A DNA stretch of 64,000 nucleotides from Clostridia bacterium (GTDB lineage: Bacteria > Bacillota > Clostridia > Oscillospirales > Acutalibacteraceae). A model generated the notes under the pieces. It saw only the letters and a program-made list of their open reading frames with translations. It was not told where the DNA came from and did no database searches. The stretch is from the NCBI GenBank assembly GCA_017465085.1, contig JAFTWW010000028.1, positions 79,296 through 143,295 on the forward strand, in the 5' to 3' direction. This document shows, in pieces, positions 7,302-63,992 of this stretch; within the stretch, counting starts at the first letter, position 1, and every line of letters begins with the position of its first letter. Position numbers and translations under genes: made by a program.

Positions 7302-9119
7302 TTATGCCTTACTGATGGCCTTAAATTTACAGTTACCCATACAAACGCCGCACTTAATGCACTTTTCAGCATCAATCTCATAAGAGGGAAGCTTGTGACC
7401 GGGGGCAACATAATCGGTTTTGTTAATTGCGGAAACGGGGCAGTTCTTAGCGCAAAGACCGCATCCGATACATTTTTCTTTATCAATGGTAAAGGAAAGA
7501 AGATCCTTACATACGCCTGCGGGGCACTTCTTATCAACAACGTGAGCTATATACTCATCGCGGAAGAACTTAAGTGTTGCAAGAACGGGGTTAGGAGCAG
7601 TCTGACCAAGACCGCAGAGAGAATTCTGCTTTATGTAGTTGCAGAGCTCTTCAAGACGATCGATATCCTCAAGTGTGCCCTTGCCCTTGGTAATATCATC
7701 AAGCATTTCAAGAAGACGCTTGGTACCGATACGGCAGGGAGTACACTTACCGCAAGATTCATCAACGGTGAACTCGAGGAAGAACTTGGCCATATCAACC
7801 ATACAGTTATCCTCATCCATTACGATAAGTCCGCTCGAGCCCATCATACAGCCGATGGCGGTGAGGTTATCAAAGTCAACCTCAGTATCGATAAGGGACT
7901 CAGGAATACATCCGCCTGAGGGACCACCTGTCTGAGCGGCCTTGAATTTCTTGCCGTTAGGAATACCGCCGCCGATATCGTAGATGATGTGACGAAGGGT
8001 TGTACCCATAGGAATTTCAACAAGACCTGTATGCTCAATCTTTCCGCCCAAAGCGAATACCTTAGTACCCTTGGATTTCTCGGTACCCATAGAGGTAAAC
8101 CAATCAACGCCCTTAAGGATAATCTGAGGAATATTAGCAAAGGTTTCAACGTTGTTTTCAACGGTAGGCTTATTGTAAAGACCCTTAACTGCAGGATAAG
8201 GAGGACGGGGACGGGGCTCACCGCGGTTACCCTCGATAGAGGTCATAAGAGCGGTTTCCTCGCCGCAAACGAATGCGCCTGCGCCAAGACGGATATAAAG
8301 GTCGAAATCAAAGCCTGAATCAAAGATGTTCTTACCGAGGAGGCCATATTCATAAGCCTGATCGATAGCCTTCTGTAAACGGTCAACAGCGATAGGATAC
8401 TCAGCGCGAACATAAACATAACCCTTAGTAGCGCCGATAGCATAGCCTGCGATAGCCATAGCCTCGATAATACAGTGGGGGTCACCTTCAAGGATGGAAC
8501 GGTCCATAAATGCGCCTGGGTCACCCTCATCGGCGTTACATACAACATATTTCTGGTCTGCCTTGTTAGGAGCGCAGAGAGACCACTTAAAGCCTGTGGG
8601 GAATCCGCCGCCGCCACGGCCGCGAAGACCTGAATCGGAAATAGTTTTGATAACCTCTTCAGGAGTCATTTCGGTAAGAGCCTTACCGAGAGCTGCATAG
8701 CCATCCATAGCGATATACTCATCAATCTGCTCGGGATCGATAACGCCGCAGTTACGGAGAACTACACGGTTCTGGGATTTATAGAAAGAAGTTTCACTAA
8801 GGGGAACTACATCTGCAACCTTCTCTTCGGCGCCTGTATCACTATATACAAGGCGATCAACAATTCTACCTTTGAGAAGATGCTCTTCAACTATTTCTTT
8901 TACATCTTCGGGGGTAACACGGCTGTAAAAAGTACCATCAGGATAAACGATAACAACGGGACCTAATGCGCAAAGACCGAAACAACCGGTCTGAACGAGT
9001 TTTACCTCTTCGGTAAGTCCGTTTGCCTCTATATTGGCAGCAAATGCTTCCTGAATAGATTGGCTTCCTGATGAGGTACAGCCTGTACCGCCACAGATAA
9101 GGACATGTGCACGAATCAT
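7302..9119 (-). CDS. hndC: NAD(P)-linked hydrogenase NuoF-like subunit HndC/HydB
   Basis: The flavin- and NADH-binding subunit that passes electrons between NAD(P)H and HndD. In its 605 residues, an N-terminal thioredoxin-like [2Fe-2S] domain (CGGTGC and TGCFGLC) precedes the NuoF core. The core carries the glycine-rich nucleotide loop GRGGGGFPTGFKW near residue 168, an SLBB segment, and the ESCGKCTPCRIG iron-sulfur site near 472. The C-terminus adds two ferredoxin motifs (CIGCGLCAKNCP and CIKCGVCMGNC), the extended form used by electron-bifurcating hydrogenases. It lies between hndB (14 bp gap) and hndD (18 bp gap), so the subunits are co-translated. Confidence 0.95.
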   Translation of the reverse strand: MIRAHVLICGGTGCTSSGSQSIQEAFAANIEANGLTEEVKLVQTGCFGLCALGPVVIVYPDGTFYSRVTPEDVKEIVEEHLLKGRIVDRLVYSDTGAEEKVADVVPLSETSFYKSQNRVVLRNCGVIDPEQIDEYIAMDGYAALGKALTEMTPEEVIKTISDSGLRGRGGGGFPTGFKWSLCAPNKADQKYVVCNADEGDPGAFMDRSILEGDPHCIIEAMAIAGYAIGATKGYVYVRAEYPIAVDRLQKAIDQAYEYGLLGKNIFDSGFDFDLYIRLGAGAFVCGEETALMTSIEGNRGEPRPRPPYPAVKGLYNKPTVENNVETFANIPQIILKGVDWFTSMGTEKSKGTKVFALGGKIEHTGLVEIPMGTTLRHIIYDIGGGIPNGKKFKAAQTGGPSGGCIPESLIDTEVDFDNLTAIGCMMGSSGLIVMDEDNCMVDMAKFFLEFTVDESCGKCTPCRIGTKRLLEMLDDITKGKGTLEDIDRLEELCNYIKQNSLCGLGQTAPNPVLATLKFFRDEYIAHVVDKKCPAGVCKDLLSFTIDKEKCIGCGLCAKNCPVSAINKTDYVAPGHKLPSYEIDAEKCIKCGVCMGNCKFKAISKA

Positions 9120-9133
9120 AACTTTACCTCCAA

Positions 9134-9499
9134 TTAATTGTTAGAAATGGTATATTCAGCAATTACATTGCCGCCCTTAAGGTGCTTTTCAACAACCTCT
9201 TTTGCCTTTTCGGCAGTCATCTTAACATAGGTTACCTTTTCCTTACCTGCCTCGTGAACCTCAACAACGGGCTCAAACTGGCAGATGCCGATGCAACCTG
9301 TTTGAGAAACGGTTACCTTATCGGCAAGACCGCCCTCATTTACGGCTTCAACAAAGGCATTAAGTACGGGACGCGCGCCTGCTGCAATGCCGCAGGTAGC
9401 CATACCTACTACTACGCGGGTTTCGTTTACGCCCTCACGGATAACAACCTTATCCTTCATTTTGTCTTTGATAGCCTGTAATTCAGCCAAAGATTTCAT
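9134..9499 (-). CDS. hndB: NAD(P)-linked hydrogenase [2Fe-2S] subunit HndB
   Basis: A small 121-residue thioredoxin-fold ferredoxin of the HndB type. The four cluster cysteines are apparent as ATCG (near residue 34) and QTGCIGICQFEP (near 69-73), with one position less certain. It resembles the N-terminal domain of the following NuoF-like subunit and serves as an electron-transfer part of the hydrogenase complex. It follows the stand-alone ATPase gene by about 25 bp and is 14 bp ahead of hndC. Confidence 0.92.
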   Translation of the reverse strand: MKSLAELQAIKDKMKDKVVIREGVNETRVVVGMATCGIAAGARPVLNAFVEAVNEGGLADKVTVSQTGCIGICQFEPVVEVHEAGKEKVTYVKMTAEKAKEVVEKHLKGGNVIAEYTISNN

Positions 9500-9523
9500 A
9501 TATATCTTCCTCTCTGCAAAATA

Positions 9524-10075
9524 CTAATTTATTTGTGAATACTGCTCTCGCAAATATTCTTCTATCCATTTTATAACATCGTAGGTATCGAGGGGTACAT
9601 CCTCTAAAACCTGACGAAGTTCCCTTGTATCAAGGGTTGCCTCTCCCCCGTTTTTCCTATGGATAAATAAGAAATCCGTATCGGGATGGCCCTGAACAAG
9701 TGTGGTGACCGTGGCCGTTATATCACCCAAGGGGGTAAAATCAAGATGTTCCTTATTAAAGGTTGCCGTAACGCAGGTGCCGTGGGGAGAGTTTTCATCC
9801 TTTGCCACGACGGAGGTGATCTCAATTCCTCCTCCTGTTTGCTCGGCGGCAAGCTTCAAAAACGGAAGACCTAAGCCTACCTTTCTGGTAGTGCGGGTGG
9901 TATAAAAGGGGTCTGTAACGGATTTAACCGTTTCTTCTGACATACCGCAACCATCATCTTTAATGGTAAGGATAAGATTTTTATCACTTTCATCAAGGGT
10001 TATCTCGGTAAGGGTTGCCCCCGCCTTAACCGAGTTTTCGGTAATATCCAGAATATTTAGTGATAATTCCTTCAT
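9524..10075 (-). CDS. Stand-alone histidine-kinase-like ATPase (GHKL)
   Basis: A 183-residue HATPase_c protein without a visible dimerisation/phosphoacceptor domain. The N box is LDITENSVKAGA, the G1 box IKDDGCGM and the G2 region RKVGLGLPFLK. Such orphan ATPases sit inside clostridial [FeFe] hydrogenase operons, where a redox-signalling role is presumed but not shown. The ATG chosen lies 6 bp after AAGGTGAT; an in-frame GTG at 10084, overlapping the PHP gene stop, is the alternative. A second, different ATPase is four genes upstream. Confidence 0.85.
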   Translation of the reverse strand: MKELSLNILDITENSVKAGATLTEITLDESDKNLILTIKDDGCGMSEETVKSVTDPFYTTRTTRKVGLGLPFLKLAAEQTGGGIEITSVVAKDENSPHGTCVTATFNKEHLDFTPLGDITATVTTLVQGHPDTDFLFIHRKNGGEATLDTRELRQVLEDVPLDTYDVIKWIEEYLREQYSQIN

Positions 10076-10080
10076 AATAA

Positions 10081-10806
10081 TCACCTTAACAGCTTAAATA
10101 ACTGACTTCGCACATATGCGCTGCTATATGGCTCATCATCAATATCGAAATAATATTCCTTATCTCGCATATCGGTAAGGTAGTGGGCATCTGAGCATAC
10201 CACCATTTTCTTACCCTCAAGACCATATTGCTTAATATATTCCTCCGCCTTTGCTCCATCGTGCAGCTCAAAGCAGGAAAAATTGCTGTTTTCGGGAAAG
10301 GTTCCTAAAACCGCGATTATTCCGTTTGCCTGACGGTCGATATGGGCGGGATAGCAGATACCGTTAAACCTTTTTACCAGTTCGGGAACGCTATCAACCG
10401 AAATATCGGTAGCGTTGGAAAGCAGATTTTCCTCGGTGCCGATTACATTATCATCGCCATCCATTATCATCTGCTCACCAAAGATATCAACGCGGTTGGG
10501 GAACGGAATACGGTGTTTTTCCACCTCTTCCGAAAACTGCATTGCATCTGAAAGCTCCTCAAAAAGACATATAATATGTATATCCTCCGAGGTGGTAAGT
10601 TCCATACCTGCAACGGCTATAATGCCGTATTTCTTGGCCGCCGCAAAGAATGCGGGGCAGTTTTTGCAGGTATTATGGTCGGTAAGCGCTACAATATTAA
10701 GTCCGCAAAGGGAAGCCATACCAGCTATGTTATTGGGTGTGTTATCATCATCTCCGCAGGGAGATAAGCAGGAGTGAATGTGCAAATCGTAATAGTATCT
10801 GTTCAT
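10081..10806 (-). CDS. PHP domain metal-dependent phosphoesterase
   Basis: A 241-residue PHP-superfamily protein. Metal-binding histidines are visible in DLHIHSCLSPCGDDD at the N-terminus, ALTDHNTC (near 41-44), CYPAHIDRQ (near 156), and the C-terminal CSDAHYL. These are the signature motifs of PHP phosphoesterases of the YciV/TrpH type. It starts on the last base of the preceding DRTGG gene and its stop overlaps the GTG option of the ATPase gene, so it is translationally coupled. Homologues recur in hydrogenase operons of Clostridia. The substrate, perhaps a nucleotide or signalling phosphodiester, is unknown. Confidence 0.88.
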   Translation of the reverse strand: MNRYYYDLHIHSCLSPCGDDDNTPNNIAGMASLCGLNIVALTDHNTCKNCPAFFAAAKKYGIIAVAGMELTTSEDIHIICLFEELSDAMQFSEEVEKHRIPFPNRVDIFGEQMIMDGDDNVIGTEENLLSNATDISVDSVPELVKRFNGICYPAHIDRQANGIIAVLGTFPENSNFSCFELHDGAKAEEYIKQYGLEGKKMVVCSDAHYLTDMRDKEYYFDIDDEPYSSAYVRSQLFKLLR

Positions 10807-11132
10807 TACACCATACCGCTCAATGCTATCGCCGTTTCATAGGACGGAAGATTTGTTGAAAGGATATTTATACCCTTTTCCTTAGCGGCATTAAGCACAT
10901 CTTCTTCAAGCTCTACGCCCTCGGAAAGAATAACACAGGAAACATCGGCAAGGGATGCCACCGCTACCACATTGATATTACTCATTATGGTAATCCAGAC
11001 ATTTGACTCCCCTGCTCTGCCCATTACCCAGCTAAGCAGGTCGCCCATATAGGCGCCTATTACCTCGCGTTCGGGATCGGGCATTGAAAGTATTTTTAGC
11101 TCTGCCTTTTCGGCAATTTCTCTTACTTTCAT
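10806..11132 (-). CDS. DRTGG domain protein (second copy in operon)
   Basis: A 108-residue single-domain DRTGG-like protein (IGAYMGDLLSWVMGRAGESNVWITIMSNINVVAVASLADVSCVILSEG shows the characteristic sandwich pattern; quoted only to locate it at residues 25-72). DRTGG domains accompany CBS domains and phosphotransacetylases and are thought to bind nucleotides or regulate partners. It overlaps the sensory hydrogenase stop by 4 bp and abuts the PHP gene. It is a paralogue of the DRTGG gene further upstream in the operon; paired DRTGG genes are a recurring feature of this hydrogenase locus type. Confidence 0.82.
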   Translation of the reverse strand: MKVREIAEKAELKILSMPDPEREVIGAYMGDLLSWVMGRAGESNVWITIMSNINVVAVASLADVSCVILSEGVELEEDVLNAAKEKGINILSTNLPSYETAIALSGMV

Positions 11133-12412
11133 TCCTTACCCTCCTTATCGGGCGGGTTATAACAATTAAGTATAAGACAGCCGTTTCCATCCGCAAGGTT
11201 TCTGACTACATCCTCTGCAAAGGCTCTGCAAGTGGGAGCGCCGCAGGAGCCGCAGTCAATACCAGGGAGCCGTTTTTTAAGCTTTTGAATATCCGCCATC
11301 ATTCGCATTGACTCAGCCATACTATCGCTGAGCTTGGTCATGGGTTGATACTCAGGTAATTCATTAAACAGGTAATTATCCGGAATATATTTTGATTCTT
11401 CTTCACTTAGAAAGTTCTGAGATACGGGAAGGTATCTTCTCAGTGTCTGCAAACGGGCTTTTGCAATAAATGGGTTCTGCATGGTGAGTACACCGCCGAC
11501 ACATCCGCCCGTACAAGCATTAAGCTCGATAAACTCAAGGGGCGGTATATTGCCGTTTTCCACCTGATCAAGCACCCTAATAACATTATCTATACCATCG
11601 GCGGCAAGGTAATCTTCATTGAAGATTGCCGTTGCTTCTCCGCCCGATCTTGCCCAGCCTATACCAATCATACCAGATTCGGAAAGGGACTCAATGCTAT
11701 CATCCTGCTTCATTTCGCCGATGAGTAAAAAGTAGATATCACTTATGGATACAACCTCATCCACCTGACTTTTGTATCCTGCGAAGCCGTTTTTAACATA
11801 GCTTACTTTTGCAGGGCAGGGTGTTATAAAGCATACGCCTATTTCTTCGGGCTTAAGCTCGGGATGAGCCTTTAAGGCTCGCTCACGGGCAAGCTTTGCC
11901 GCAACCTCCATGGGAGGAAGCATATGGATAATGTGATCGTTAAGGGATGGGAACCTCAGACCTATAAGCCTTAAAACCACGGGACAAGCCGAGCTGATGG
12001 CGGGCTTTTTAACGCCATCGGTTTTAAGATAGAGTCTTGTATAAGCCGAAACAAGCTCGGCTGCCTTTGAAACCTCATAAACATCGTCAAATCCGATTTT
12101 AAGCAAACCATCAAGCACATAATCTATATCATCAAGATTATCAAACTGACCGTAAAGAGTGGGGGCAGGAAGAGCAATCTTCCATTTGAAGCGCTCCATA
12201 TCCTGAAGCTTTCCGCACACCGCTTTTTTTGCTTTATGGGGGCAGTTTCTTATACATTCGCCGCAATCAATACATCTTTCGTTATTGATAACGGCGTGAC
12301 CGTCACGAATTCTTATAGCCTCTGTAGGACAATGCCTTAAGCAAGTGGTGCAACCTGTGCATTTGCTTTCATCAAGCAGAACGGAATGTTCATAAGTATG
12401 CAAAGTTATCAC
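11129..12412 (-). CDS. Sensory-type [FeFe] hydrogenase (HydS-like)
   Basis: A 427-residue protein with two N-terminal [4Fe-4S] motifs (CTGCTTCLRHCP, CIDCGECIRNCP), a modified H-cluster domain, and a C-terminal [4Fe-4S] domain of PF04060 type (DCGSCGAPTCRAFAEDVV). L1 reads SSACP, so the proton-relay cysteine of catalytic enzymes is alanine. L2 is TPCPAK without the final glutamate. L3 is ACTGGCVGG without GGGQP. The cluster-ligating cysteines remain. This is the pattern of putative sensory group C/D hydrogenases, suggesting an H2 or redox sensor for the operon. It starts at a GTG directly after the upstream stop; a TTG nine bases on fits the Shine-Dalgarno better. Confidence 0.87.
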   Translation of the reverse strand: MITLHTYEHSVLLDESKCTGCTTCLRHCPTEAIRIRDGHAVINNERCIDCGECIRNCPHKAKKAVCGKLQDMERFKWKIALPAPTLYGQFDNLDDIDYVLDGLLKIGFDDVYEVSKAAELVSAYTRLYLKTDGVKKPAISSACPVVLRLIGLRFPSLNDHIIHMLPPMEVAAKLARERALKAHPELKPEEIGVCFITPCPAKVSYVKNGFAGYKSQVDEVVSISDIYFLLIGEMKQDDSIESLSESGMIGIGWARSGGEATAIFNEDYLAADGIDNVIRVLDQVENGNIPPLEFIELNACTGGCVGGVLTMQNPFIAKARLQTLRRYLPVSQNFLSEEESKYIPDNYLFNELPEYQPMTKLSDSMAESMRMMADIQKLKKRLPGIDCGSCGAPTCRAFAEDVVRNLADGNGCLILNCYNPPDKEGKE

Positions 12413-12838
12413 CTACACAATATTTACTCGCATTACCACTGTGGTACCGACACCGACTGTGGAATCAATCTCCATACTATCGGTATAACGCTTCATATTA
12501 GGCAGGCCCATACCTGCGCCGAAGCCTAAGGAGCGTATTCTATCAGGCGCGGTGGAGAAGCCCTCCTGCATAGCCTGATCAATATTCTTTATGCCGGGAC
12601 CGCTATCTTTAAGAATGATCTCGATATAATCCTCACACACCTTAACGGTGGCTTCGCCGCCGCCTGCGTGGATAACCATATTGATTTCACCCTCATACAT
12701 TGCTATTGAAACTCTTCTGATTATCTCGGGGTTAATCCCAAGCTGCCGTAAATTTTTCTTGATTTGCACCGATGCCTGACCTGCAGATGTAAAATCATCG
12801 CCATCAACATCGAAAGTAAAAACTAATTCTTCGCCCAT
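12413..12838 (-). CDS. Anti-sigma-factor-like (RsbW/SpoIIAB-type) ATPase
   Basis: A 141-residue GHKL ATPase of the serine-kinase anti-sigma type. Motifs are YEGEINMVIHAGGG (N box), LKDSGPGI (G1) and RSLGFGAGMGLPNMKRY (G2). No cognate sigma factor or anti-anti-sigma gene is adjacent; its neighbours are a DRTGG gene (sharing one base) and the sensory hydrogenase (directly abutting). Its place next to the sensor suggests it transduces the H2/redox signal, possibly as a protein kinase. That is inference from context. Confidence 0.85.
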   Translation of the reverse strand: MGEELVFTFDVDGDDFTSAGQASVQIKKNLRQLGINPEIIRRVSIAMYEGEINMVIHAGGGEATVKVCEDYIEIILKDSGPGIKNIDQAMQEGFSTAPDRIRSLGFGAGMGLPNMKRYTDSMEIDSTVGVGTTVVMRVNIV

Positions 12839-13188
12839 TACTTAACCTTATTACCTACAAGACCGTTGGTATAAAGCAGACCGCAGGCCTCATAAAGTCT
12901 TTTATCGGTTTTCATAATTACTATGCCGCTCTCTTTTGCTAAAGCCAGCATTTCATCGGTGGGAGCTTTGGAACGAACGAAAACTATGCAAATCATATCC
13001 ATCATTTCGGCAGTGCGGATAACCTGTGGATTTACTAATCCTGTGAGAAGAACAGCCTGATCCTTAACATAAGCCAAAACATCGCTCATAAGGTCACAGC
13101 CGCAGGCGGAATATACGTGTTTATCAATATTTTCCTCGCAGCAAAGCACCTCGGCCTCAAGCAGCTCCTTCATATTACTGATTTTCAT
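12838..13188 (-). CDS. DRTGG domain protein (first copy in operon)
   Basis: A 116-residue single-domain DRTGG protein. Its central strand-helix pattern (VLTGLVNPQVIRTAEMMDM, about residues 46-64) and acidic C-terminal half match the paralogue three genes downstream. It follows hndA by 28 bp and overlaps the ATPase gene by one base. The likely role is small-ligand sensing or a regulatory interaction within the hydrogenase module; no catalytic motif is visible. Confidence 0.8.
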   Translation of the reverse strand: MKISNMKELLEAEVLCCEENIDKHVYSACGCDLMSDVLAYVKDQAVLLTGLVNPQVIRTAEMMDMICIVFVRSKAPTDEMLALAKESGIVIMKTDKRLYEACGLLYTNGLVGNKVK

Positions 13189-13216
13189 ACAGACACTTTC
13201 CTTCTAAATCTCAAAA

Positions 13217-13714
13217 TCAGTCGGCGTATTTTGCCAGAATATCATCAACATCATCAACTGTAAGGCGGCCGTAAACATCCTCGTTTACAGTAAGTACGGG
13301 AGCAAGTCCGCACGCGCCTATACAACGGCAAGCGGTAAGAGAGAACTTACCATCTGCGGTGCATTCATCTGCACCTATACCAAGGCGTTCGCTGAGCTTA
13401 TCAAAGATATCGCCCGAGCCCTTAACATAACAAGCAGTGCCAAGGCAAACTGAAATGTTGTACTTACCCTTGGGAGAAAGCGAGAACTGGGCATAGAAGG
13501 TTGCAACGCCATAGATTTTTTCCATGGGTACCTCCATACCTTCGGAGATCATTTCCTGAACTTCGATAGGCAGGTAACCGTAAATGTCCTGAGCCTTCTG
13601 CATAACTACCATAAGGTTGCTCTTATCATGCTTGTTCTCTTCGATAACCTGCATAAGCTTAGCTTCCTGCTCGGCAGTTCCCTGAAAGGGAAGTGTGCTG
13701 ATTTTCTTCTTCAT
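13217..13714 (-). CDS. hndA: NAD(P)-linked hydrogenase NuoE-like subunit HndA/HydC
   Basis: A 165-residue NuoE-family [2Fe-2S] subunit. Cluster cysteines lie in SVCLGTACYVKGS and SLTACRCIGACGLAP, and the N-terminal helical region (VMQKAQDIYGYLPIEVQEMIS) is typical. The chosen ATG has a strong GGAGGA 7 bp upstream. An in-frame ATG 14 codons earlier exists but lacks a ribosome binding site and would start inside the leader. This is the first gene of a ten-gene minus-strand operon ending with hndD. Confidence 0.93.
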   Translation of the reverse strand: MKKKISTLPFQGTAEQEAKLMQVIEENKHDKSNLMVVMQKAQDIYGYLPIEVQEMISEGMEVPMEKIYGVATFYAQFSLSPKGKYNISVCLGTACYVKGSGDIFDKLSERLGIGADECTADGKFSLTACRCIGACGLAPVLTVNEDVYGRLTVDDVDDILAKYAD

Positions 13715-13784
13715 TAACAGAATCCTCCTCTGAAAATAATATGTATCAAGCGTCACCCGTCAAAAATTGACATAGTACGCAACT

Positions 13785-13822
13785 ATACTATTGTAGTATA
13801 ACACATAAAACTCTTTTTGCAA
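13785..13822 (-). promoter_or_regulatory. Hydrogenase operon promoter with overlapping palindrome
   Basis: On the minus strand TTGCAA (13822-13817) and TATACT (13800-13795) are separated by 16 bp. A perfect 6-3-6 palindrome, ATACTA-TTG-TAGTAT at 13785-13799, overlaps the -10 box and the predicted start. The same palindrome overlaps the rimP operon promoter near 43.5 kb. It may be an operator or partly reflect a common -10 context (TGTAGTATAAT). Confidence 0.55.
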
Positions 13823-13930
13823 AGTGTTTTTATTAAAAAATGTTAAAATTTTATCAATTTATTTTTAATATAATAAAAAAGCGTGCCGATTGATGTAAAT
13901 CATACTCTATTTATACATCCCGACAATAAA

Positions 13931-13972
13931 AAAGCAGAAGAAATTTCAGAGAATCTCTTGAATTTCTTCTGC
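13931..13972 (-). terminator. Intrinsic terminator of the GltS-like gene
   Basis: A 12-bp stem GCAGAAGAAATT/AATTTCTTCTGC with further inner pairing is followed on the minus strand by TTTTTTATT. It separates the symporter gene from the upstream region of the hydrogenase operon. Confidence 0.75.
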
Positions 13973-14034
13973 CCAATTTTACTTGGTTAAAATTTATATT
14001 TTTCTGATATCTCGGTTAAAAGCGTTTATATCTG

Positions 14035-15474
14035 CTACTGCTCATCCTTCCAGACTATTTCGGGCGTATTCTTATACCGCTTTTTGAAAATCTTTCGACG
14101 GAATAAATATATGGTATAAGCAGACCACAGCACGAAAAATATTACAAAAGCAATAATAGCGTTGGTTGGGGATTTCCCTGCAAAGCTCAGCAAGAACAGC
14201 AGCGGCGCTATCATCACCATAGCGGGAAAATTCGAAAGAATATAAAGGCTTGAGGTTGGAGTTCTAAGCCCCGGGTCTATTTCCTTCATAAGTATCATAC
14301 CGTTTGATGCGGTACCTGTCATTGTGCCGAAGCTCATCAGGAAAAATTCGTGTTCAAAACCTTTAAAGCATTCCTTGGCAACCAAACGAATGTAAATATA
14401 TGTAACTACGGTGCCTACTACGCTGAGTACAACGATGGGCAGAATATAGTTTTTGATATCGTTTATCTCAATAGCCGCTACGCCTGCCACTATCATCAGG
14501 TCAAAAGAAAATCCTGAGATACGGTCCATTTGGTAGTTATTTATATAATCTCTTTCCATTATATTGCGTTTGCGTAGCTGATTGACTACAAACTTTATCA
14601 GCATAGCCGCAAGAGAAGCCCAAAGGAAATTGAAGCCCCAGGCAATACTGTTTGTGAAATTGGAGATTTTGCCAAGCAGACACATAAAGCCAAATGAAAG
14701 GGCATACGCCAATGCTACGAAGCCTACCTGCAAGGTGAATTTATCCACCGATTCGTTATCGGGGATTTCCTTACCGCTTTCATTGCTTTGATTATTGGTT
14801 TCGCTGTTGGTGTTGGCATTGCGAACCTGCAAATCGCCGCGCTTTTTATAAATATTGATATATAATACGCCAAACACAGATGCAACCACAAAGCCGATGG
14901 AAGCAAGTGATAAACCGAAGCTTCCGTTACCTGCAAACTGGGTGGCAGGAGTATTGGTAAAGTTGATATCCCAACTAAGCGCATTGCCCGGTCCCTGACC
15001 GTAAGCAAGAGGCAGAATCAAACCGCAGATATATGAAATTATCTTATCGCCGTGCTTGGTAAAAAGGAACATAAGCAAGGTAATTCCAAGACCTACAAAG
15101 GCTTGTAGCATATACGAGCCGCCCTGCAAGGCGCCGAATTCAACTACCTGAGCCTTATTGGTTTTATGAGTACTCTTTTCTGTTTTTAGCGTCATAGAAG
15201 CAAATCCTATGGCTAAGCAATGATATGTAATAACCTGCATTAGTCGGTTGTTGACCAATGTGAAACCGAACTGTTTTGCAATTATATCAACAACGAGCAA
15301 AAGGGCACCGCCCAAGAGCGCGGAAGGAATAAGGCACTTGCGAAACAGCGGAACGATACGGCGGAGAATATTACCTAACATAAGAAACAACAGTAAAAGC
15401 CCAAGCTGTACCATAAACGCCCAGACTGCATCATAATTTGCCAGTGTAAAATCCCAGCTTGATGCATAATCCAT
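14035..15474 (-). CDS. Sodium/glutamate symporter family (GltS-like) membrane protein
   Basis: A 479-residue polytopic protein with about eleven hydrophobic segments in two halves, separated near residues 210-240 by an Asn/Glu-rich cytoplasmic loop. The N-terminal half (LGLLLLFLMLGNILRRIVPL, then a glycine-rich re-entrant segment around ICGLILPLAYGQGPGNA) and the C-terminal SFGTMTGTASNGMILMKEIDPG match the two repeat hairpins of the ESS/GltS sodium:glutamate symporter family. It is monocistronic with its own terminator. Glutamate as substrate is an assumption; clostridial homologues of this length are usually left as GltS-like. Confidence 0.72.
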   Translation of the reverse strand: MDYASSWDFTLANYDAVWAFMVQLGLLLLFLMLGNILRRIVPLFRKCLIPSALLGGALLLVVDIIAKQFGFTLVNNRLMQVITYHCLAIGFASMTLKTEKSTHKTNKAQVVEFGALQGGSYMLQAFVGLGITLLMFLFTKHGDKIISYICGLILPLAYGQGPGNALSWDINFTNTPATQFAGNGSFGLSLASIGFVVASVFGVLYINIYKKRGDLQVRNANTNSETNNQSNESGKEIPDNESVDKFTLQVGFVALAYALSFGFMCLLGKISNFTNSIAWGFNFLWASLAAMLIKFVVNQLRKRNIMERDYINNYQMDRISGFSFDLMIVAGVAAIEINDIKNYILPIVVLSVVGTVVTYIYIRLVAKECFKGFEHEFFLMSFGTMTGTASNGMILMKEIDPGLRTPTSSLYILSNFPAMVMIAPLLFLLSFAGKSPTNAIIAFVIFFVLWSAYTIYLFRRKIFKKRYKNTPEIVWKDEQ

Positions 15475-56126: not shown

Positions 56127-56377
56127 CAAAGGCTCCCTTGTGTAAAGGGAGCTGTTGAGCGATAGCGAAACTGAGAGATTGGCTATTAAAGAATAAATAA
56201 TAAAGAAGAAAAAATAAATTTGGAGTTTCGCAAGGCCAAACCGTATATTTCGTCGGCATTACCGACACCAATTTTATTATTTATTATTTCTTATTTACAA
56301 AAGACTGAGGGGTTGTTGGTTTTACAATCCTCCCACCGCTAACGAGGTCCACCCTCCTTTACACAAGGAGGGCTTTG
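56127..56377. mobile_element. MITE-like element of 251 bp
   Basis: The ends are imperfect terminal inverted repeats: CAAAGGCTCCCTTGTGTAAAGGGAG on the left and, read as complement, CAAAGCCCTCCTTGTGTAAAGGAGG on the right. Each end also forms a hairpin on its own. An inner pair of A+T-rich inverted segments (AATAAATAATAAAG...TTTATTATTTATT) surrounds a short core with CGTCGGcattaCCGACG. There is no ORF. No clear target-site duplication was found. It ends 3 bp from the stop of the spoIVB fragment. Confidence 0.75.
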
Positions 56378-56380
56378 TAT

Positions 56381-56605
56381 TTACGACGCTTCTTTTAATT
56401 GTTCGTTTGCAACGGATTGCGCGGTTTCGAGCATATTTTCTGCGAAAATGCCGTAGCCTTTGGTGCTATCATCCACAAGTACGTGGGTAACGGCGCCGAT
56501 AAGCTTGCCGTTTTGAAGTATGGGTGAGCCGCTCACGTGTGTGTCAATATAGGACCAACACATTTTTTGCATTTTATACTTTTCAAATTCCCCCATAAAA
56601 TACAA
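56381..56605 (-). pseudogene. spoIVB: 3' fragment of the SpoIVB serine peptidase gene
   Basis: The 74-codon frame ends with residues 24-61 reading [19 protein letters not shown], then a diverged [13 protein letters not shown], which is the conserved C-terminal catalytic part of sporulation peptidase SpoIVB (the SGSPI serine). The first 20 residues come from an unrelated terminator-like hairpin, so the frame is not a working gene. The PDZ domain, signal anchor and catalytic His are absent. A direct repeat (ATAGGACCAACA) lies at the junction. It is probably a deletion or transfer relic; an intact spoIVB is expected elsewhere. Confidence 0.75.
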
Positions 56606-56770: not shown

Positions 56771-57322
56771 TCAAAATTCGAATCCTGATTTATACCATTT
56801 AGATAAGTTCTCAAAATACAATAAATGATTTTTCAACCAGAGATTTTGGTCAAAATCAGAATCATCTCCATGAATGTAAGATGCATCAATTTTAACCAAA
56901 AATTTTATCAAGTATGGTAATAATTTGCCTTTATTTATATCCATTTCATCCATATTATGCAATATGGATAAAAAACACTTCGTGCGCTCAAACATAAGAT
57001 AATCACGTATACGTGCGGTTAATAAATATTCATTTAAACTTTCCTTTGTGTATTTCATTTTCAGAATTTTTGTTATAAATTTGTATTCAATTTCACTAAT
57101 TTCCCCTTGTGTCAACACAAAAGAAATATAGTCTAAAATAACTTGATTTATTGTTTCGTCCATATCAGAATCAGATTGTAATTGCAATCCTGTTACTTCT
57201 GTTATTTCATTTTTCGTATTTTTTGCAAGCAATCGAAACACATCGAGCTCAACGCACAAAATACCCGCCCCAACCAAATCAAGTAATTCTTCATCTGAAA
57301 GCTTTTCATCATTTTCGAGCAT
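56771..57322 (-). CDS. Uncharacterised 183-residue protein next to the Hhe-like gene
   Basis: The protein is acidic and predicted all-helical, with no signal, membrane segment or recognised family. A stretch at residues 75-98 (LTQGEISEIEYKFITKILKM) weakly resembles the acidic loop-helix pattern of TerB-like domains, with a second acidic stretch near 152-158. The 38-bp gap to the upstream 2118-residue gene, same strand and no terminator between them, indicates co-transcription. It could be a regulator or partner of the defence protein; this is inferred only from position. GGGGGATTAAA lies before the ATG. Confidence 0.7.
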   Translation of the reverse strand: MLENDEKLSDEELLDLVGAGILCVELDVFRLLAKNTKNEITEVTGLQLQSDSDMDETINQVILDYISFVLTQGEISEIEYKFITKILKMKYTKESLNEYLLTARIRDYLMFERTKCFLSILHNMDEMDINKGKLLPYLIKFLVKIDASYIHGDDSDFDQNLWLKNHLLYFENLSKWYKSGFEF

Positions 57323-57360: not shown

Positions 57361-60300
57361 TTACAGAGTCCACTTGCCATTGGAACCCAATTTTATTTTA
57401 CTTTGCTCGGTAGCCTGTTTGACAGCTTCTTCAAACAATGCGACTACAATATTACCCATTCTTGTATATCCCATAAGCTTTGCTGCCTCGCGAATTAAAT
57501 CTTCTTCCGAGAGGCTAATTTGCTGTTCAAGAACATAACAAACCGCATTGACGGCTTCGGTAATAGGAACATCTTTGGTATCACGCTTATTATCACCATC
57601 GCCTGTTGCACGGATAAATGTATAATTTTCAGACAGTTGACCATTGTTCCAATAAATTTTTTCGCCATTCTGCATTGTAAAGTTGAGCTTTAGGGCAGCA
57701 TAAACTCTATCCATATACTCCTGAATTCTACTTCCAGAACGGGCAATACCGAAGCTTTGTACAACCCTTTTAGTAAGCATACTATGGCTTATTGGTGCTT
57801 CGCTGAGCATAACAAGTTGAACCGACTGCACAATCTCGGTCCTATGCCAACCTGAAATAAACTCGTCGGCTGACATATATCGATTATTAAGTTTAGCGGC
57901 TTTATATGCTGTTAAATTGTCATTCGTTTTAATGGACACAGGTTCATTAAAATGCATATTTGCCGACAAAACTTCAGGTGTTTTTGCTTGTACAGTTTCA
58001 TGTTGTTCTTCGATTTGGCTTTTTATACCATTTTGCAAATCTTTAATTTTTGAAATAATACGGTCGATTTCTTTTTGACTATTATCCCACCAGTCCATAG
58101 TCCAAATGCGTATGATATCCCAACCAAGTCCGTTAAGCACATTGATTTGAGCGATTTCACGGTCTCGTGTAGTCTTAGCGGTTTCATACGAAGCTCCGTC
58201 CAACAAAATACCAAGAATATATTTATCTGTATTTTTCGGATCAATAACACCGATATCAATGCGGTATTCCGAATGGCCTACCGACATATCTGTATCAAAC
58301 CCTTCGGATTTTAGAATTTCGCAAATAGTTTTAGCAATTCCTTCCTTACTGTGACGATACTGCTCGGAGGTATTTTCATCAAGGGCAAGTTCATGTCCTC
58401 CAGCATATTCTAAAAATGCTTTTAAAGCGGCAACGCCTTCGGAACTTGTACGCGAAAGGTTTATTTGATCTGGCTTCAAAGCAGAAAAAACGATCATTTC
58501 ACTTCTGGCACGTGAAACCGCAACATTAAGTCTTCTCCAACCACCTTCGCGATTAAGTGGACCAAAATTCATATATACCTTTCCGTTTTGATCAGGTCCG
58601 TAACCGATAGAGAATAAAATAACATCGCGTTCATCACCCTGAACATTTTCAAGGTTTTTAATAAATAAGGGTTCTTCAGATTCATATACCCATTTTTCCA
58701 AGTCGCTGTCTTTTTCGCAAGCTTCGCTAAGCAAATCGTCTATTAAATGTTGCTGTGATATATTGAATGTAACTACACCGATGCTACATTTAGAAAGTTC
58801 AGGGTCATGGCATCTGCGTTTGATTTCAGAAACGACCGCTTCGGCTTCGGCTTGGTTTTTACGGGATTTTCCGCGTTCAAATACACCGTCAACATGCACC
58901 AGTGAAACTTTTGATTCACGGTCATTTACCGATGGGAAGGTATATAACTTATTCTCATAAAACTGATTGTTACTAAAGGCAATCAAGCTTTCGTGACGGC
59001 TTCGATAGTGCCAAAGCAAATGTGTCTGAGGCATGTTAAGGGCAAGACAGTCATCCAATATGCTCTCCAAATCCTCAATATCCAGATTATCCTCATCGAC
59101 AGTATTGGTTGCAAAAAACGATGTTGGTGGCATCTGTTTAGGATCCCCTACAATTACTGCGTCCTTACCTCTTGCCAGTACGCCCACAGCCTTACAGGTT
59201 GGAAGCTGTGATGCTTCATCAAATACAACAATATCAAAAGCTTCCCGTTTGGAATCCAAATATTGAGCAACAGAAATAGGACTCATAAGCATACACGGGC
59301 AGAGACGCGGCAAAAGATTTGAAATATCCTCAAATAATTTTCGGATACTTGTACCCCTTCCTCCGCTTTTTATCACTCTTTGAAGTATACCAATTTCCGA
59401 ACTATGTGCTGCAGCCGCAACAAAGTTAGGAACTTTGCTTGCTAATCGGCAATAAACTTCTTTTTGCGACAATTTAGTCAATTCGGCATCTATACGCTTG
59501 AATTGCTCGATTTTTTCATTAAACACAGCGCCAGAAAAAGAATTTAATGCAGAGTTTTTATCGATTGCGATAATGCATAAGGCATAGAATATGGCTTTTT
59601 TATATGCGGGGATTATATCGCTATGTGTCATTCCGCCGTTATATGCCTCAATCACACCATCTAATCCTGCGTTTAATGCTTCGCCTACAATTCCTTTATA
59701 TGAAATCCATTCTTTTATTTGATCAACGTTAGATAAAATATTATCACATATGATGATTTGCTCTGATATCCAGTTTGACTCTGCGGTCATTTCTGATATT
59801 TGCAAAATTCCATAACAGTTATTTTTAGTCTCAGGCAATGCAGTATACTTTTCGAGTATTGAATTAACTGTTTTTTGTAATGTGGATTCACCGCAGAAAG
59901 TTAAACGCATTTTTTCATCACCAGTAATGGTAACTAATGCATTAGCACTCAACTTTGCAGCATCAATCAGTTTGATAACATTAGACCAATCGGTTTCTTT
60001 ACCAACGTACAATTCGCCAAGATCATCGCCATATTTTGCAAACAGTTCATTTGCAGATTTGAGTTCGGTTTGATAATTGCAAAGCGTTGTTATAGCATTA
60101 CCTAAATCCGATTTTATTACTTCACCGTGTGAAAATACAGCTAATTTTTTCGCAAAACCATTTATTCCTGTTATCTTAGCTAAAAACCATTTTGCGGAAA
60201 TATCATTATACTCTTTAAGTAATTGTTCGCCGCTTTGTTGCAAAAACATCTCATTCCATGTTTGCATCAAACTATTATGTAAATTGTTTGCTTTAATATA

Positions 60301-63300
60301 GTGTTCAGCCATTTCTTTTAATTCTGTAAGATAACGGGTTAAGTTTTCAACTTTTGCCCATGATTTTGGGAAAGAAAACCAGAAGCTGAATTCTTTTGCA
60401 ATTAAATATAGTTTTTGCACATCGGAGAAGGAATGTGGACTCGAAATCCCCAGTTTGTTAGAGAAATCTTCGAGCGTATCGGAAATTTCGGTTAAAGCAT
60501 TTTTATATGCAAAAACCTTATCTTGCAACTCTGCACGCAAATTCTGCGTATAGGATGTGACACCTATACATGAAAGGGGATGATTATAAGGATGTTTTAC
60601 TGCCTTTGCGGCAGCAATTAACCTTTCGAGTAGAATTGTATGGTCTTCGAGAGTAAACTTTCCTAAGCCCTCAACATAATCTCTTGAAAAAGCAGAAATG
60701 TCGGGAGCTTTTTTATATTTTTCATATTCGTTTATTAACTCATATAAAGTATAACCGCATGGTTGTGAACTATGTAGTTGCAGAGCATAGGAATCAAGTT
60801 CGGAACGCAATTTTGCGATTTGTTCTGCTTTCTGTGCGTATTGTTCTGCCGTTGTGTATTTAGTCACTTCGGTGACACGTCTCAATTGTTCAAGAACATC
60901 TTTTTTCTTGGATTTATTAGAGTGAAGTTCCAAACAAAATGGCCCGATTCCTATATTTTCAAGGCGTTTTTGCACTACTTCAAGCGCAGCCATTTTTTCG
61001 GCCACGAAAAGCACAGATTTTCCTTGCGATAATGCATTTGCTATTAGAGATGTGATTGTTTGAGACTTACCAGTTCCTGGAGGTCCGTGCAAAACAAAAC
61101 TTTCACCCTTGCAGGCGGCTTCGATTGCATATAGTTGTGAGGCATCAGCAGGCATAGGCAAAAGCACATTATCTTCAGATACACGAGTGCCAATTTCCAT
61201 AGGATTTGCTTCCCATGAAAGTTTGCCTTCAACCAAGCTCTTAACAACCTTGTTCTTCATTAAATCTTCTGTACGATTACGCAGATCGTTCCACATTACG
61301 AATTGCGAAAAAGAAAATATGCCAAGGTATGCCGATTCCAACACATCCCAATGTGGCTGTTCCATAATAGCCTTACGCAAAATTGTAAATACTCGGCGCA
61401 AATCCACACCATGCTCATCCGCAGGTAATGGATCAAGCCCTTCTACTACAACGCCAAAATCTTGTTTAAGCTTTTCGAGAACTGTAATATTCATTTGAGG
61501 CTCATCGTCGCGCAAGCGGATAACAAAACCTCTGTTTGCGGATTTTCGTATAATTTCAACAGGTAAAAGAACTATAGGTGCATAGCGTGGCTTTGTGCTG
61601 CGCGGATTTTCATACCAACGCAAAAGTCCTAACGCCAGATAAAGTGTGTTAGCGCCATTTTCTTCAAGAGCTGTTTTGGAAGTACGATATAAGCCTTTTA
61701 TAATTTTGGTTAATTCGGCTTCCGTCAAGGTTGAACGTAGGCGTTTGTTGGCGAATTCGGATTTGATAACACTAACATAGGGGCCTAAATCATGAGTGCT
61801 TTCAAAACTTTGTTCTTCTGTATTCATAGGCCAATCGGTTGGCCTTGCTAAAACTGAAAAATCGCTACCGCTCGAAAGTGCATCTTCAAAATCGTCCAAC
61901 GAAGAAGAAAGTAAGGGAATAAGTGTTTTAGAAAAGCGTAAATTTATAAGATTATTACGCAAACCTAAATCAAGCAACTTTCTTTCCCATTGCATCAATT
62001 TAGGATCATTTTGTTCGGTAGAACCTACATTGACATCAACGATTCCGTCAATAGCTTTTGGTGCGGCTGTATTGTTTTCATCTTTTATGGAATCATGATC
62101 AATATGCCATCCGTCTTCATTATGTATTCTTTGAGGCAAAGGCGAGATTCCGCTTATTCTCGCACGATGTACATCTATAATACACTCAACAGGATCTGTG
62201 CCGACTAAATTATGCTCAGCAACGGTTCTTGCGTCATCAAATGTAGCATTTTTCCCGTTTACAACACAGGTTGTTTCAACCACTGCAATTTCATTAACAC
62301 CTGCGGCTAAACGTTTAGTCACTACAGAAGGATCGTCTTGCACAGCTTCTGGGAAAGATAACGCCTCTAACCAAACGCCGCTGAATATGTGACCTTTTGT
62401 CAATACCATAATTGGATGTAGACCAACTGCTTCCAAACATGAAGCATAAAGAAGTGTTAAATCAAGACAGGTTCCAAACTTTTGTCCGATAACAGCATCA
62501 CATAAGCGAACACGCTGACCAATTTTTTCAAAACTTGCGGGAGGAACACTGTAAATAATATTTTCTTCTTTAATAGCATTGAATATTGCTGCCGCTTGAT
62601 TTAATACACGATTAGGATCCTGCGTCTGATAAGCGTCCATCGAAGGATCTCCAGTCCATTCTTTTAGCAATTCAGCAGCACGAGCTATTATTTTTATTAA
62701 ATTTGGATGATTTGGCGTAACAAAAGAAGTGAGCAACTCAGGATAATAAACATAGCCATGCCATTCATCAAAAGCTAATACGGTTATTTCAACACTTTCT
62801 TCGGTTACTAATACCTCATCTTTAAACAGTTCAACAATTAAGCGACCTTTAATTTTTTCGGTTATTCCTGCTAAAAACTCTGCATTTAATGATACAGGAA
62901 CATTTTTAATTTCATAATTTTTATTTTCAGGTATATAATCTATGGTTGTTGAGAAAGGAATAATCGCATCTGTATCGGCAGAAATGCGAATTTCAACATT
63001 CTCAAGGCCAATATTTGAATTATTGTTTATTGTTATGTTTTGTACCGTAGGAATATTATTTTGTTGCAACGCATAATTAAGCACAGGAATAGTAGATACA
63101 TCTATACGTATCTGTTCTTTGTTGATGATTAAAGATTCTGCTTCAGTTAATTCAATGCTTTCAGAAACTTTTGTTGCACGTAATGCACGTTCTATGCTAG
63201 GCGTTTCGGTTGCTTTAGTTTTTATAGTTTCTACCGCCGCGATAAGTTCGTTCAATTTTTCTTCTTGAGCTTTAATTCTTTCTTCATAATCATTTTCATC

Positions 63301-63717
63301 AACACAATTAACTGGCTCTTTATATTCTTCTGCCTGATATTCCCAATCGCCATATACCTCCATAAACCAATTAGATAAGGTATATGCCATGTGAAGTAAT
63401 GTTTTAGCAGAATCTACAGAACTCAATCCATTATGAACCGCATTGTTCCGAGCTTTCCTGAGTGAAAATAAAATATCATCAATATTTTTAGGAATAACGC
63501 CTATGCTTTTTAAAGACCTAATACGATCAGCATTATTCGATTCTTCAGGCATGTCAAGTTTTTCGAATTTGCAGATTTCTAAAACTACACGTTCCCCAAG
63601 CAGTCCAAGTTTATATATGCAAGCATTAGTATCTGAATAAAGATGCATCTCGGCCATTTTGCCGATTTCTGCTAAATCTGGCCAATACTTAGCCAAGAAA
63701 TTAAAATTAGATAACAT
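57361..63717 (-). CDS. hhe: Hhe-like defence protein: HEPN, DUF4011, SF1 helicase, Vsr-like nuclease
   Basis: A 2118-residue multidomain protein. Residues 1-130 are HEPN/DUF4145-like with R90-x4-H95 (RNNAVH). Residues 400-490 are transglutaminase-like (C417, D419, H443, E481). DUF4011 begins near 574 (WERKLLDLGLRNNLINLR). SF1 helicase motifs are GPPGTGKS (879-886), DEASQ (1501), GDPKQMPP (1525), WHYRSRHE (1570), QGDERDVI (1694) and NVAVSRAR (1732). A Vsr/MTES_1575-type nuclease has RIDIGV (1820-1825), DG (1841) and RDRE (1852). A DUF3320-like tail follows. The combination matches the Hhe anti-phage system (HEPN, helicase, Vsr). GAGGGG precedes the ATG. The sequence is visibly more A+T-rich than the rest. 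The system name is from memory and not database-checked. Confidence 0.9.
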   Translation of the reverse strand: MLSNFNFLAKYWPDLAEIGKMAEMHLYSDTNACIYKLGLLGERVVLEICKFEKLDMPEESNNADRIRSLKSIGVIPKNIDDILFSLRKARNNAVHNGLSSVDSAKTLLHMAYTLSNWFMEVYGDWEYQAEEYKEPVNCVDENDYEERIKAQEEKLNELIAAVETIKTKATETPSIERALRATKVSESIELTEAESLIINKEQIRIDVSTIPVLNYALQQNNIPTVQNITINNNSNIGLENVEIRISADTDAIIPFSTTIDYIPENKNYEIKNVPVSLNAEFLAGITEKIKGRLIVELFKDEVLVTEESVEITVLAFDEWHGYVYYPELLTSFVTPNHPNLIKIIARAAELLKEWTGDPSMDAYQTQDPNRVLNQAAAIFNAIKEENIIYSVPPASFEKIGQRVRLCDAVIGQKFGTCLDLTLLYASCLEAVGLHPIMVLTKGHIFSGVWLEALSFPEAVQDDPSVVTKRLAAGVNEIAVVETTCVVNGKNATFDDARTVAEHNLVGTDPVECIIDVHRARISGISPLPQRIHNEDGWHIDHDSIKDENNTAAPKAIDGIVDVNVGSTEQNDPKLMQWERKLLDLGLRNNLINLRFSKTLIPLLSSSLDDFEDALSSGSDFSVLARPTDWPMNTEEQSFESTHDLGPYVSVIKSEFANKRLRSTLTEAELTKIIKGLYRTSKTALEENGANTLYLALGLLRWYENPRSTKPRYAPIVLLPVEIIRKSANRGFVIRLRDDEPQMNITVLEKLKQDFGVVVEGLDPLPADEHGVDLRRVFTILRKAIMEQPHWDVLESAYLGIFSFSQFVMWNDLRNRTEDLMKNKVVKSLVEGKLSWEANPMEIGTRVSEDNVLLPMPADASQLYAIEAACKGESFVLHGPPGTGKSQTITSLIANALSQGKSVLFVAEKMAALEVVQKRLENIGIGPFCLELHSNKSKKKDVLEQLRRVTEVTKYTTAEQYAQKAEQIAKLRSELDSYALQLHSSQPCGYTLYELINEYEKYKKAPDISAFSRDYVEGLGKFTLEDHTILLERLIAAAKAVKHPYNHPLSCIGVTSYTQNLRAELQDKVFAYKNALTEISDTLEDFSNKLGISSPHSFSDVQKLYLIAKEFSFWFSFPKSWAKVENLTRYLTELKEMAEHYIKANNLHNSLMQTWNEMFLQQSGEQLLKEYNDISAKWFLAKITGINGFAKKLAVFSHGEVIKSDLGNAITTLCNYQTELKSANELFAKYGDDLGELYVGKETDWSNVIKLIDAAKLSANALVTITGDEKMRLTFCGESTLQKTVNSILEKYTALPETKNNCYGILQISEMTAESNWISEQIIICDNILSNVDQIKEWISYKGIVGEALNAGLDGVIEAYNGGMTHSDIIPAYKKAIFYALCIIAIDKNSALNSFSGAVFNEKIEQFKRIDAELTKLSQKEVYCRLASKVPNFVAAAAHSSEIGILQRVIKSGGRGTSIRKLFEDISNLLPRLCPCMLMSPISVAQYLDSKREAFDIVVFDEASQLPTCKAVGVLARGKDAVIVGDPKQMPPTSFFATNTVDEDNLDIEDLESILDDCLALNMPQTHLLWHYRSRHESLIAFSNNQFYENKLYTFPSVNDRESKVSLVHVDGVFERGKSRKNQAEAEAVVSEIKRRCHDPELSKCSIGVVTFNISQQHLIDDLLSEACEKDSDLEKWVYESEEPLFIKNLENVQGDERDVILFSIGYGPDQNGKVYMNFGPLNREGGWRRLNVAVSRARSEMIVFSALKPDQINLSRTSSEGVAALKAFLEYAGGHELALDENTSEQYRHSKEGIAKTICEILKSEGFDTDMSVGHSEYRIDIGVIDPKNTDKYILGILLDGASYETAKTTRDREIAQINVLNGLGWDIIRIWTMDWWDNSQKEIDRIISKIKDLQNGIKSQIEEQHETVQAKTPEVLSANMHFNEPVSIKTNDNLTAYKAAKLNNRYMSADEFISGWHRTEIVQSVQLVMLSEAPISHSMLTKRVVQSFGIARSGSRIQEYMDRVYAALKLNFTMQNGEKIYWNNGQLSENYTFIRATGDGDNKRDTKDVPITEAVNAVCYVLEQQISLSEEDLIREAAKLMGYTRMGNIVVALFEEAVKQATEQSKIKLGSNGKWTL

Positions 63718-63868: not shown

Positions 63869-63992
63869 CCACCCGCATAGCGGGTGGTTTTTCATTTTCG
63901 GGCATAGCCCTAACCGATACTGGCGGCGCACAAGTGCGCTTTTTTGTTGGCCTGCCAGCCATGCAAACACTACTTGCTACCAGTAAACTGGT
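63869..63992. repeat. Cluster of intergenic hairpins at the right edge
   Basis: In 124 bp there are CCACCCG/CGGGTGG followed by TTTTT (terminator-like), GGGC/GCCC, GCGCAC/GTGCGC nested inside CTGGC/GCCAG, and ACCAGT/ACTGGT. There is no ORF. The region upstream of the Hhe-like gene (63718-63868) is A+T-rich without a convincing promoter. The cluster resembles the dense hairpin repeats elsewhere in the window and could be the edge of a larger repeat cut by the window end. Confidence 0.55.

Follow-up and report, generated by a model that had tools for sequence, protein, structure and literature searches.

Giant proteins that unite HEPN, transglutaminase-like, superfamily 1 (SF1) helicase, Vsr and winged helix-turn-helix (wHTH) domains are described in the accessible parts of Anantharaman et al. 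(2013; PMC3710099), where it is proposed that they act without DNA modification, the wHTH recognising the DNA, and that the HEPN domain serves suicide once DNA cleavage fails. Further points of comparison are the curated families ProA (NF058533; PDC-S37) and Hhe (NF042953), and the type I restriction subunit HsdR with a DUF4145 N-terminus (PRK11448 family). In this study, we analysed the 64,000-nt stretch of a Clostridia bacterium genome (assembly GCA_017465085.1, contig JAFTWW010000028.1) designated G000:C15:79296-143295, where G000 is the bacterium's own genome; this whole stretch is called the window below. Its minus strand encodes, at 57361..63717, a protein of 2118 residues. We consider it likely that this is an anti-phage protein of the ProA family that carries a fused N-terminal head, namely the HEPN and linker of a type I restriction subunit, HsdR.

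Family membership and domain architecture

The gene is real and intact, with 2118 open codons from an ATG start. The contig end coincides with the last base of the window, 283 bp upstream of the gene. The assigned start fits, because the first residues (MLSNFNFL) align with MKSNFDFL, with which R. albus HsdR begins in its annotation, and because a Shine-Dalgarno (SD)-like GAGGGG was recognised by eye 7 nt 5′ of the ATG.

By curated cut-offs, the assignment of the protein to the ProA side is well supported by its sequence. The NCBIfam equivalog NF058533 (antiphage_ProA) scored 2073.5 bits (cut-off 1500; 2073.7 bits in the genome search), the whole model (1-1903) being matched over residues 214-2086, whereas the Hhe model NF042953 gave 805.9 bits, under its cut-off of 2000. 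In two scans of four relatives each, all were likewise above the ProA cut-off and under that of Hhe. A sequence-only reading of the same DNA had named the protein Hhe, and this name has to be given up. PADLOC, to which that reading had pointed, did return a defence model, PDC-S37 (1220.8 bits, residues 572-2110), which ranked first and far over Hhe (570.6 bits).

The two families are related. Hhe has DUF4011, an SF1 helicase and an MTES_1575 nuclease in common with the window protein at about 30-35% identity; in a BLAST comparison, the annotated Hhe WP_009309938 (1911 aa) was 35% identical over residues 1375-2007 and 30% over residues 636-1091. However, DUF4011 lies at 30-308 in WP_009309938 and at 580-750 in the window protein, so that the former has no space for a transglutaminase-like part ahead of it; WP_009309938 also had no DUF4145 or DUF3320 match (Pfam, E ≤ 0.01) and no significant BLAST alignment with window residues 1-206. 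The N-terminal DUF4011 is taken as an Hhe trait from this one annotated protein and is not exclusive to Hhe: the Yersinia similis relative L097 (1034-6595) has DUF4011 at residues 30-210, an Hhe-like layout, yet scored 1620.5 bits with the ProA model and 1084.7 bits with the Hhe model. ProA and Hhe therefore grade into each other, which is what the earlier name has in its favour. Given the Hhe score far under the cut-off, the full-length match to ProA and the direct comparison with WP_009309938, we rejected Hhe identity and regard it as almost certainly wrong. That ProA stands for Prometheus A (Prometheus is a named defence system) is no more than a guess.

Beyond the name, the domains listed in the sequence-only reading were all recovered in Pfam or in the alignment of relatives: a HEPN-like domain with an intact R-x4-H motif, DUF4011, an SF1 helicase motif set and a Vsr-like nuclease with its acidic residues. 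On the minus strand, residues 1-204 (63106..63717) comprise the HEPN (DUF4145), a linker and the first HSDR_N residues, with R90-x4-H95 (RNNAVH), the predicted HEPN RNase motif, at 63433..63450; composition alone predicts about 0.1 such motifs within the first 130 residues. Residues 214-530 (62128..63078) make up the N-terminal part of the ProA model and contain a transglutaminase-like region (C417, H443 and D515), which the earlier reading overlooked; with the corrected family name, this region is now added to the description of the protein. There follow DUF4011 (residues 580-750, 61468..61980; Pfam 1.7e-46), a UPF1/SMUBP-2/DNA2-like SF1 helicase (residues 858-1745, 58483..61146) whose halves AAA_11 (858-976) and AAA_12 (1553-1745) are separated by a long insertion, the Vsr-like nuclease MTES_1575 (residues 1796-1891, 58045..58332; Pfam 1.8e-23) and DUF3320 (residues 1951-2000, 57718..57867; Pfam 1.6e-8).

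Its single chain holds an SF1 helicase, a Vsr-type MTES_1575 nuclease and wHTH/DUF3320, and in its kinds of domain the protein is like the MTES_1575 giants, which were compared by description only. In the accessible parts of PMC3710099, DUF3320 is a winged-helix region and two wHTH are named for the giants, as against one DUF3320 match in the window protein; their N-terminal HEPN is described as active, and that of MTES_1575 is placed in the SWT1/Abi2 family, whereas that of the window protein is of the DUF4145/HsdR kind. Compared with ProA itself, the window protein has about 204 further, HsdR-related residues ahead of the model.

The motifs of the core are conserved. A genome scan gave 55 loci: 35 in which the start of the core is complete, 15 that are cut short or matched only farther in, and 5 HEPN-only loci with HsdR-size frames; conservation was scored in the 32 relatives left when L070, L076 and L082 are set aside from the 35. 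The nuclease residues D1821, D1840, R1853, E1854 and Q1857 are retained in all 32, the helicase motif residues in 30-32 and the C417/H443/D515 triad in 31. A distant relative outside this set, L042, has P at the D1821 position. The exception for the triad is L063 (1635-2738), in which I and R replace the transglutaminase-like C and H, so that this domain, too, can be dead. When 38 aligned members were scanned at E ≤ 0.5, Transglut_core matched 12 weakly (best E 0.0093) and DUF553 matched 7 (best E 1.3e-4); the 38 include five HsdR N-termini, which lack this region. The nearest PDB structures by sequence are the helicases SMUBP-2, SEN1, DNA2 and UPF1; the PDB sequence search gave nothing for residues 1-575 and matches of E 0.36 or worse only for the nuclease/wHTH end.

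The N-terminal head and its relation to HsdR

The relation of residues 1-204 to HsdR was missed by the sequence-only reading; judged from sequence comparison, this part was apparently captured from HsdR. The N-termini of nine HsdR or HsdR-type proteins, two of which were seen to match DUF4145, gave a profile (1-209) that matched residues 1-204 of the window protein with 203.4 bits and ended at residue 204. The same profile gave 199 bits for L078, 103 for L056, 91 for L095 and 34 for L084, and was not significant on the HEPN-less L071. Residues 1-204 are 50% identical to R. albus HsdR (annotated hsdR in PLSDB), and PRK11448 matches the window N-terminus with 4.5e-34. HsdR identity was checked in Pfam for L048 and the R. 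albus protein; the other rows are HsdR-type by their match and a frame of about 1070-1115 aa (815 aa in the exception, L049). In 394 genomes of the order, the HEPN is best matched, its own genome aside, by a 1100-aa frame at 53%, and a plasmid search with the head alone returned 89 records, of which, among the 15 listed, those with a named feature are hsdR. The own genome, which is 96% complete, gave one match to this HEPN and showed no second protein carrying it.

The likeness to HsdR of the PRK11448 family is confined to these residues. As the HSDR_N match begins at residue 192 in R. albus HsdR, the window protein keeps the HEPN, the linker and approximately the first dozen HSDR_N residues. 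The HsdR nuclease domain past these residues, the superfamily 2 (SF2) motor and EcoEI_R_C, which R. albus HsdR has, are absent; neither HSDR_N nor EcoEI_R_C is among the 25 Pfam families listed for the window protein. The junction is clean, since HsdR similarity stops at residue 204 and the ProA model begins at residue 214. In a HEPN tree of 15 rows without the fast-evolving copies, the window protein and L078 stand together (99/96) beside three HsdR-type rows (98/96), which places them inside the HsdR-type HEPNs. We read these sequence relationships as one capture of the head from HsdR, several captures from similar donors being also possible.

Restriction genes also occur close to ProA genes. 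L079 (2668-16826) is a compact defence island with type I HsdS and HsdR, one gene between, a SWIM-type ProA and then a PADLOC HEC-05 match. Its R subunit matches PDC-M16A at 2-183, as the window N-terminus does at 2-189. The ProA of L078 lies near a type IIG restriction-modification gene. Having ProA and hsdR near each other in an island would offer a plausible route to a fusion.

Several observations weigh against the proposed fusion of an anti-phage ProA core with an HsdR-derived HEPN head. In the Pfam check, which matched DUF4011, MTES_1575 and DUF3320, DUF4145 was found at residues 26-101 with an E-value of 2.6e-4 and 21.4 bits, just short of the gathering score (23.1). Support for a HEPN comes nevertheless from the HsdR N-terminus profile (203 bits), and in the sister protein L078 DUF4145 lies above gathering (25.4 bits). 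No transglutaminase model in Pfam matches the window protein itself. In trees with all copies, ProA and HsdR-type HEPNs split with support of 75/97 (7 + 13 rows) and 84/92 (10 + 9 rows), and because this support is moderate, any direction or number of captures is tentative. A literature search, with most subscription journals outside its reach, found no paper describing ProA, so that the term 'anti-phage' rests on NCBI's model name. An estimated assembly contamination of 2.1%, together with the contig end, casts a small doubt on the context of the locus. Finally, R-x4-H has been lost in 8 of the 10 aligned ProA HEPN copies, a loss that the earlier reading missed.

The HEPN motif and the N-terminal slot

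The two aligned ProA HEPN copies with an intact motif are those of the window protein and L078 (RNDAVH). A deletion of four residues across the motif accounts for its loss in six related copies, and substitutions for that in L056 and L084; one more HEPN match of ProA size, L125, lies outside the ten aligned. RNase action is thus not general to the fusion. Five dead copies of the deletion clade are 63-74% identical to one another in the HEPN, compared with 72-82% over 300 core residues, and their ratio of nonsynonymous to synonymous substitution (dN/dS) is 0.07-0.22 in the HEPN (computed for 5 of 10 pairs, the others being saturated), compared with 0.04-0.11 in the core (6 of 10 pairs). The dead copies are therefore constrained, so that the head has a function independent of the RNase site, at least in the deletion clade.

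These data bear on an alternative that we find conceivable but somewhat doubtful, namely that the HEPN head is idle in catalysis, serving docking, oligomerisation or regulation, and that the protein acts only via its ProA core. Loss of the motif in most ProA copies while dead copies stay constrained speaks for this alternative, and so does the repeated gain or loss of the head described below; the intact motif in the window protein, in L078 and in 10 of 15 HsdR or HsdR-type copies argues the other way. From its sequence, the HEPN of the window protein could have either an RNase or a non-RNase role.

The N-terminus of ProA is, by sequence comparison, a variable slot. Of the 35 relatives whose core start is complete, 20 lack an extension (fewer than 80 residues ahead of the core), 7 have a HEPN, 7 a SWIM-like module and 1 another extension. 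A HEPN is missing from L071, whose core is the closest to that of the window protein among those found (73% identity). The core tree (34 rows) calls for at least four gains or losses to account for its nine proteins with a HEPN, and a single clade of these is rejected (approximately unbiased (AU) test, p 1.3e-69, quick tree); the head has therefore come or gone several times. When plasmids were searched with the complete protein, none of the 40 matches listed out of 519 began before residue 163 or showed the head. The SWIM-like ProA proteins belong to Lachnospiraceae (L105 at 8560-14901, L074, L079, L082, L089, L090 and L107) and share this slot with the HEPN. They are defined by a C-x-C...C-x-H pattern, which in the one tested, L105, was matched by Pfam SWIM (2.7e-6); L082 was counted with them though its core is split in two frames. 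In L077, the 2371-aa frame that contains ProA begins with an extension of another kind, about 249 residues long. Both the variability of this slot and the loss of the catalytic HEPN motif from ProA copies are new here, as far as the accessible parts of PMC3710099, in which neither was seen, and a literature search not aimed at either allow us to say.

By analogy with the 2013 proposal, as given in the accessible parts of PMC3710099, and from the domains present, the following mechanism can be suggested for a ProA core with an HsdR-derived head. The core would recognise invading DNA through its winged helices, the SF1 helicase would move it along the DNA and the Vsr-like nuclease would cut; the transglutaminase-like domain might add protein cleavage. 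A HEPN head with an intact site, as in the window protein, would add a second, RNA-directed effector, while relatives with a dead HEPN may keep the head for something else, for instance binding or oligomerisation.

A further idea, which we think unlikely, is that the head is an integrated decoy in an exchangeable sensor slot, a piece of HsdR offered as bait on which phage anti-restriction proteins land and thereby switch ProA on. If true, it would explain why the head stays constrained after loss of the RNase site, why other lineages of ProA have a SWIM-like module or nothing in its place, and why the window genome shows no second protein with this HEPN. Whichever role the head has, a restriction-subunit head on an otherwise unrelated helicase-nuclease suggests that defence proteins exchange whole modules, and a core that occurs with an intact HEPN head, a dead one or none provides a natural series for asking whether the head is an RNase effector or a sensor.

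Distribution and neighbourhood of the gene

The gene is accessory and was probably transferred, as the sequence-only reading had supposed of a defence gene. Profile searches gave the matches described above, and the gene, far from being universal and syntenic, occurs in only one of the 70 genus genomes, namely its own; in a sample of the family, 25 of 200 genomes have matches (E ≤ 0.001, partial and helicase-only matches counted). The gene is also A+T-rich, as had been noticed. The 34 long open reading frames (ORFs) in the window average 42.5% (sd 3.3) in G+C content (GC) and include three that are lower than the gene, which has 37.8%; at third codon positions (GC3) the gene has 29.0%, compared with 42.7% (sd 3.3, minimum 34.2%), and here it clearly deviates. 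On plasmids, 353 records match core residues 206-2118 (E ≤ 1e-30), 63 of them across at least 80% of the core, and many of the core matches are Klebsiella records annotated Hhe. One relative, L114, lies in a contig of a viral collection.

This distribution bears on the possibility that the protein is a host DNA repair or housekeeping helicase-nuclease and not a defence protein. The core does resemble the UPF1, SMUBP-2 and DNA2 helicases, and the accessible parts of PMC10250203 give some DUF4011 genes as core genes, e.g. in P. aeruginosa. However, the restricted occurrence in genus and family, the deviant GC3, the relatives on plasmids and in a viral contig and the curated ProA name make a housekeeping role highly improbable.

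Beside the ProA gene lies a block of an AraC gene and a sugar operon that is common to L043-L045 and, less one gene, to L046; the genes past AraC, where the ProA gene stands here, vary among the window, L043-L045 and L046. Directly 3′ of the ProA gene, a 183-aa orphan gene (56771..57322, minus strand) starts 38 bp past the ProA stop on the same strand, with a GC of 29% and a strong SD-like site recognised by eye, AGGAAAGGGGG. It is a possible operon partner of ProA. Searches of the 299 other genomes from the family, of plasmids, phages and viral contigs and of the PDB found no relative of it; in 391 genomes of the class, one marginal match (5.5e-4) covers residues 31-142 inside a longer frame from another family. 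As a conserved partner of ProA it was rejected, having no relative beside other ProA genes.

Among 310 neighbour ORFs at 37 loci, no conserved operon partner of ProA was found. The largest similarity group joins 6 loci, with members of 251-598 aa that include an ABC transporter ATPase, and was taken as chance; the two groups that span 4 loci are confined to a single close clade (L038, L039, L059 and L096).

The gene fragment that the earlier reading had seen adjoining the gene is the C-terminal end of SpoIVB (56381..56605, minus strand; Peptidase_S55 175-210/210, 1.1e-17; TIGR02860 361-400/402). Of the MITE (miniature inverted-repeat transposable element)-like element also proposed there, what stands is a dispersed repeat at 56179..56310, which recurs in the same genome as three further partial copies (85-88% identity) and as shorter pieces; the full structure of a MITE was not shown. 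On the other side, just upstream of the ProA gene and near the contig end, the plus strand carries two terminator-like hairpins at 63869-63940.

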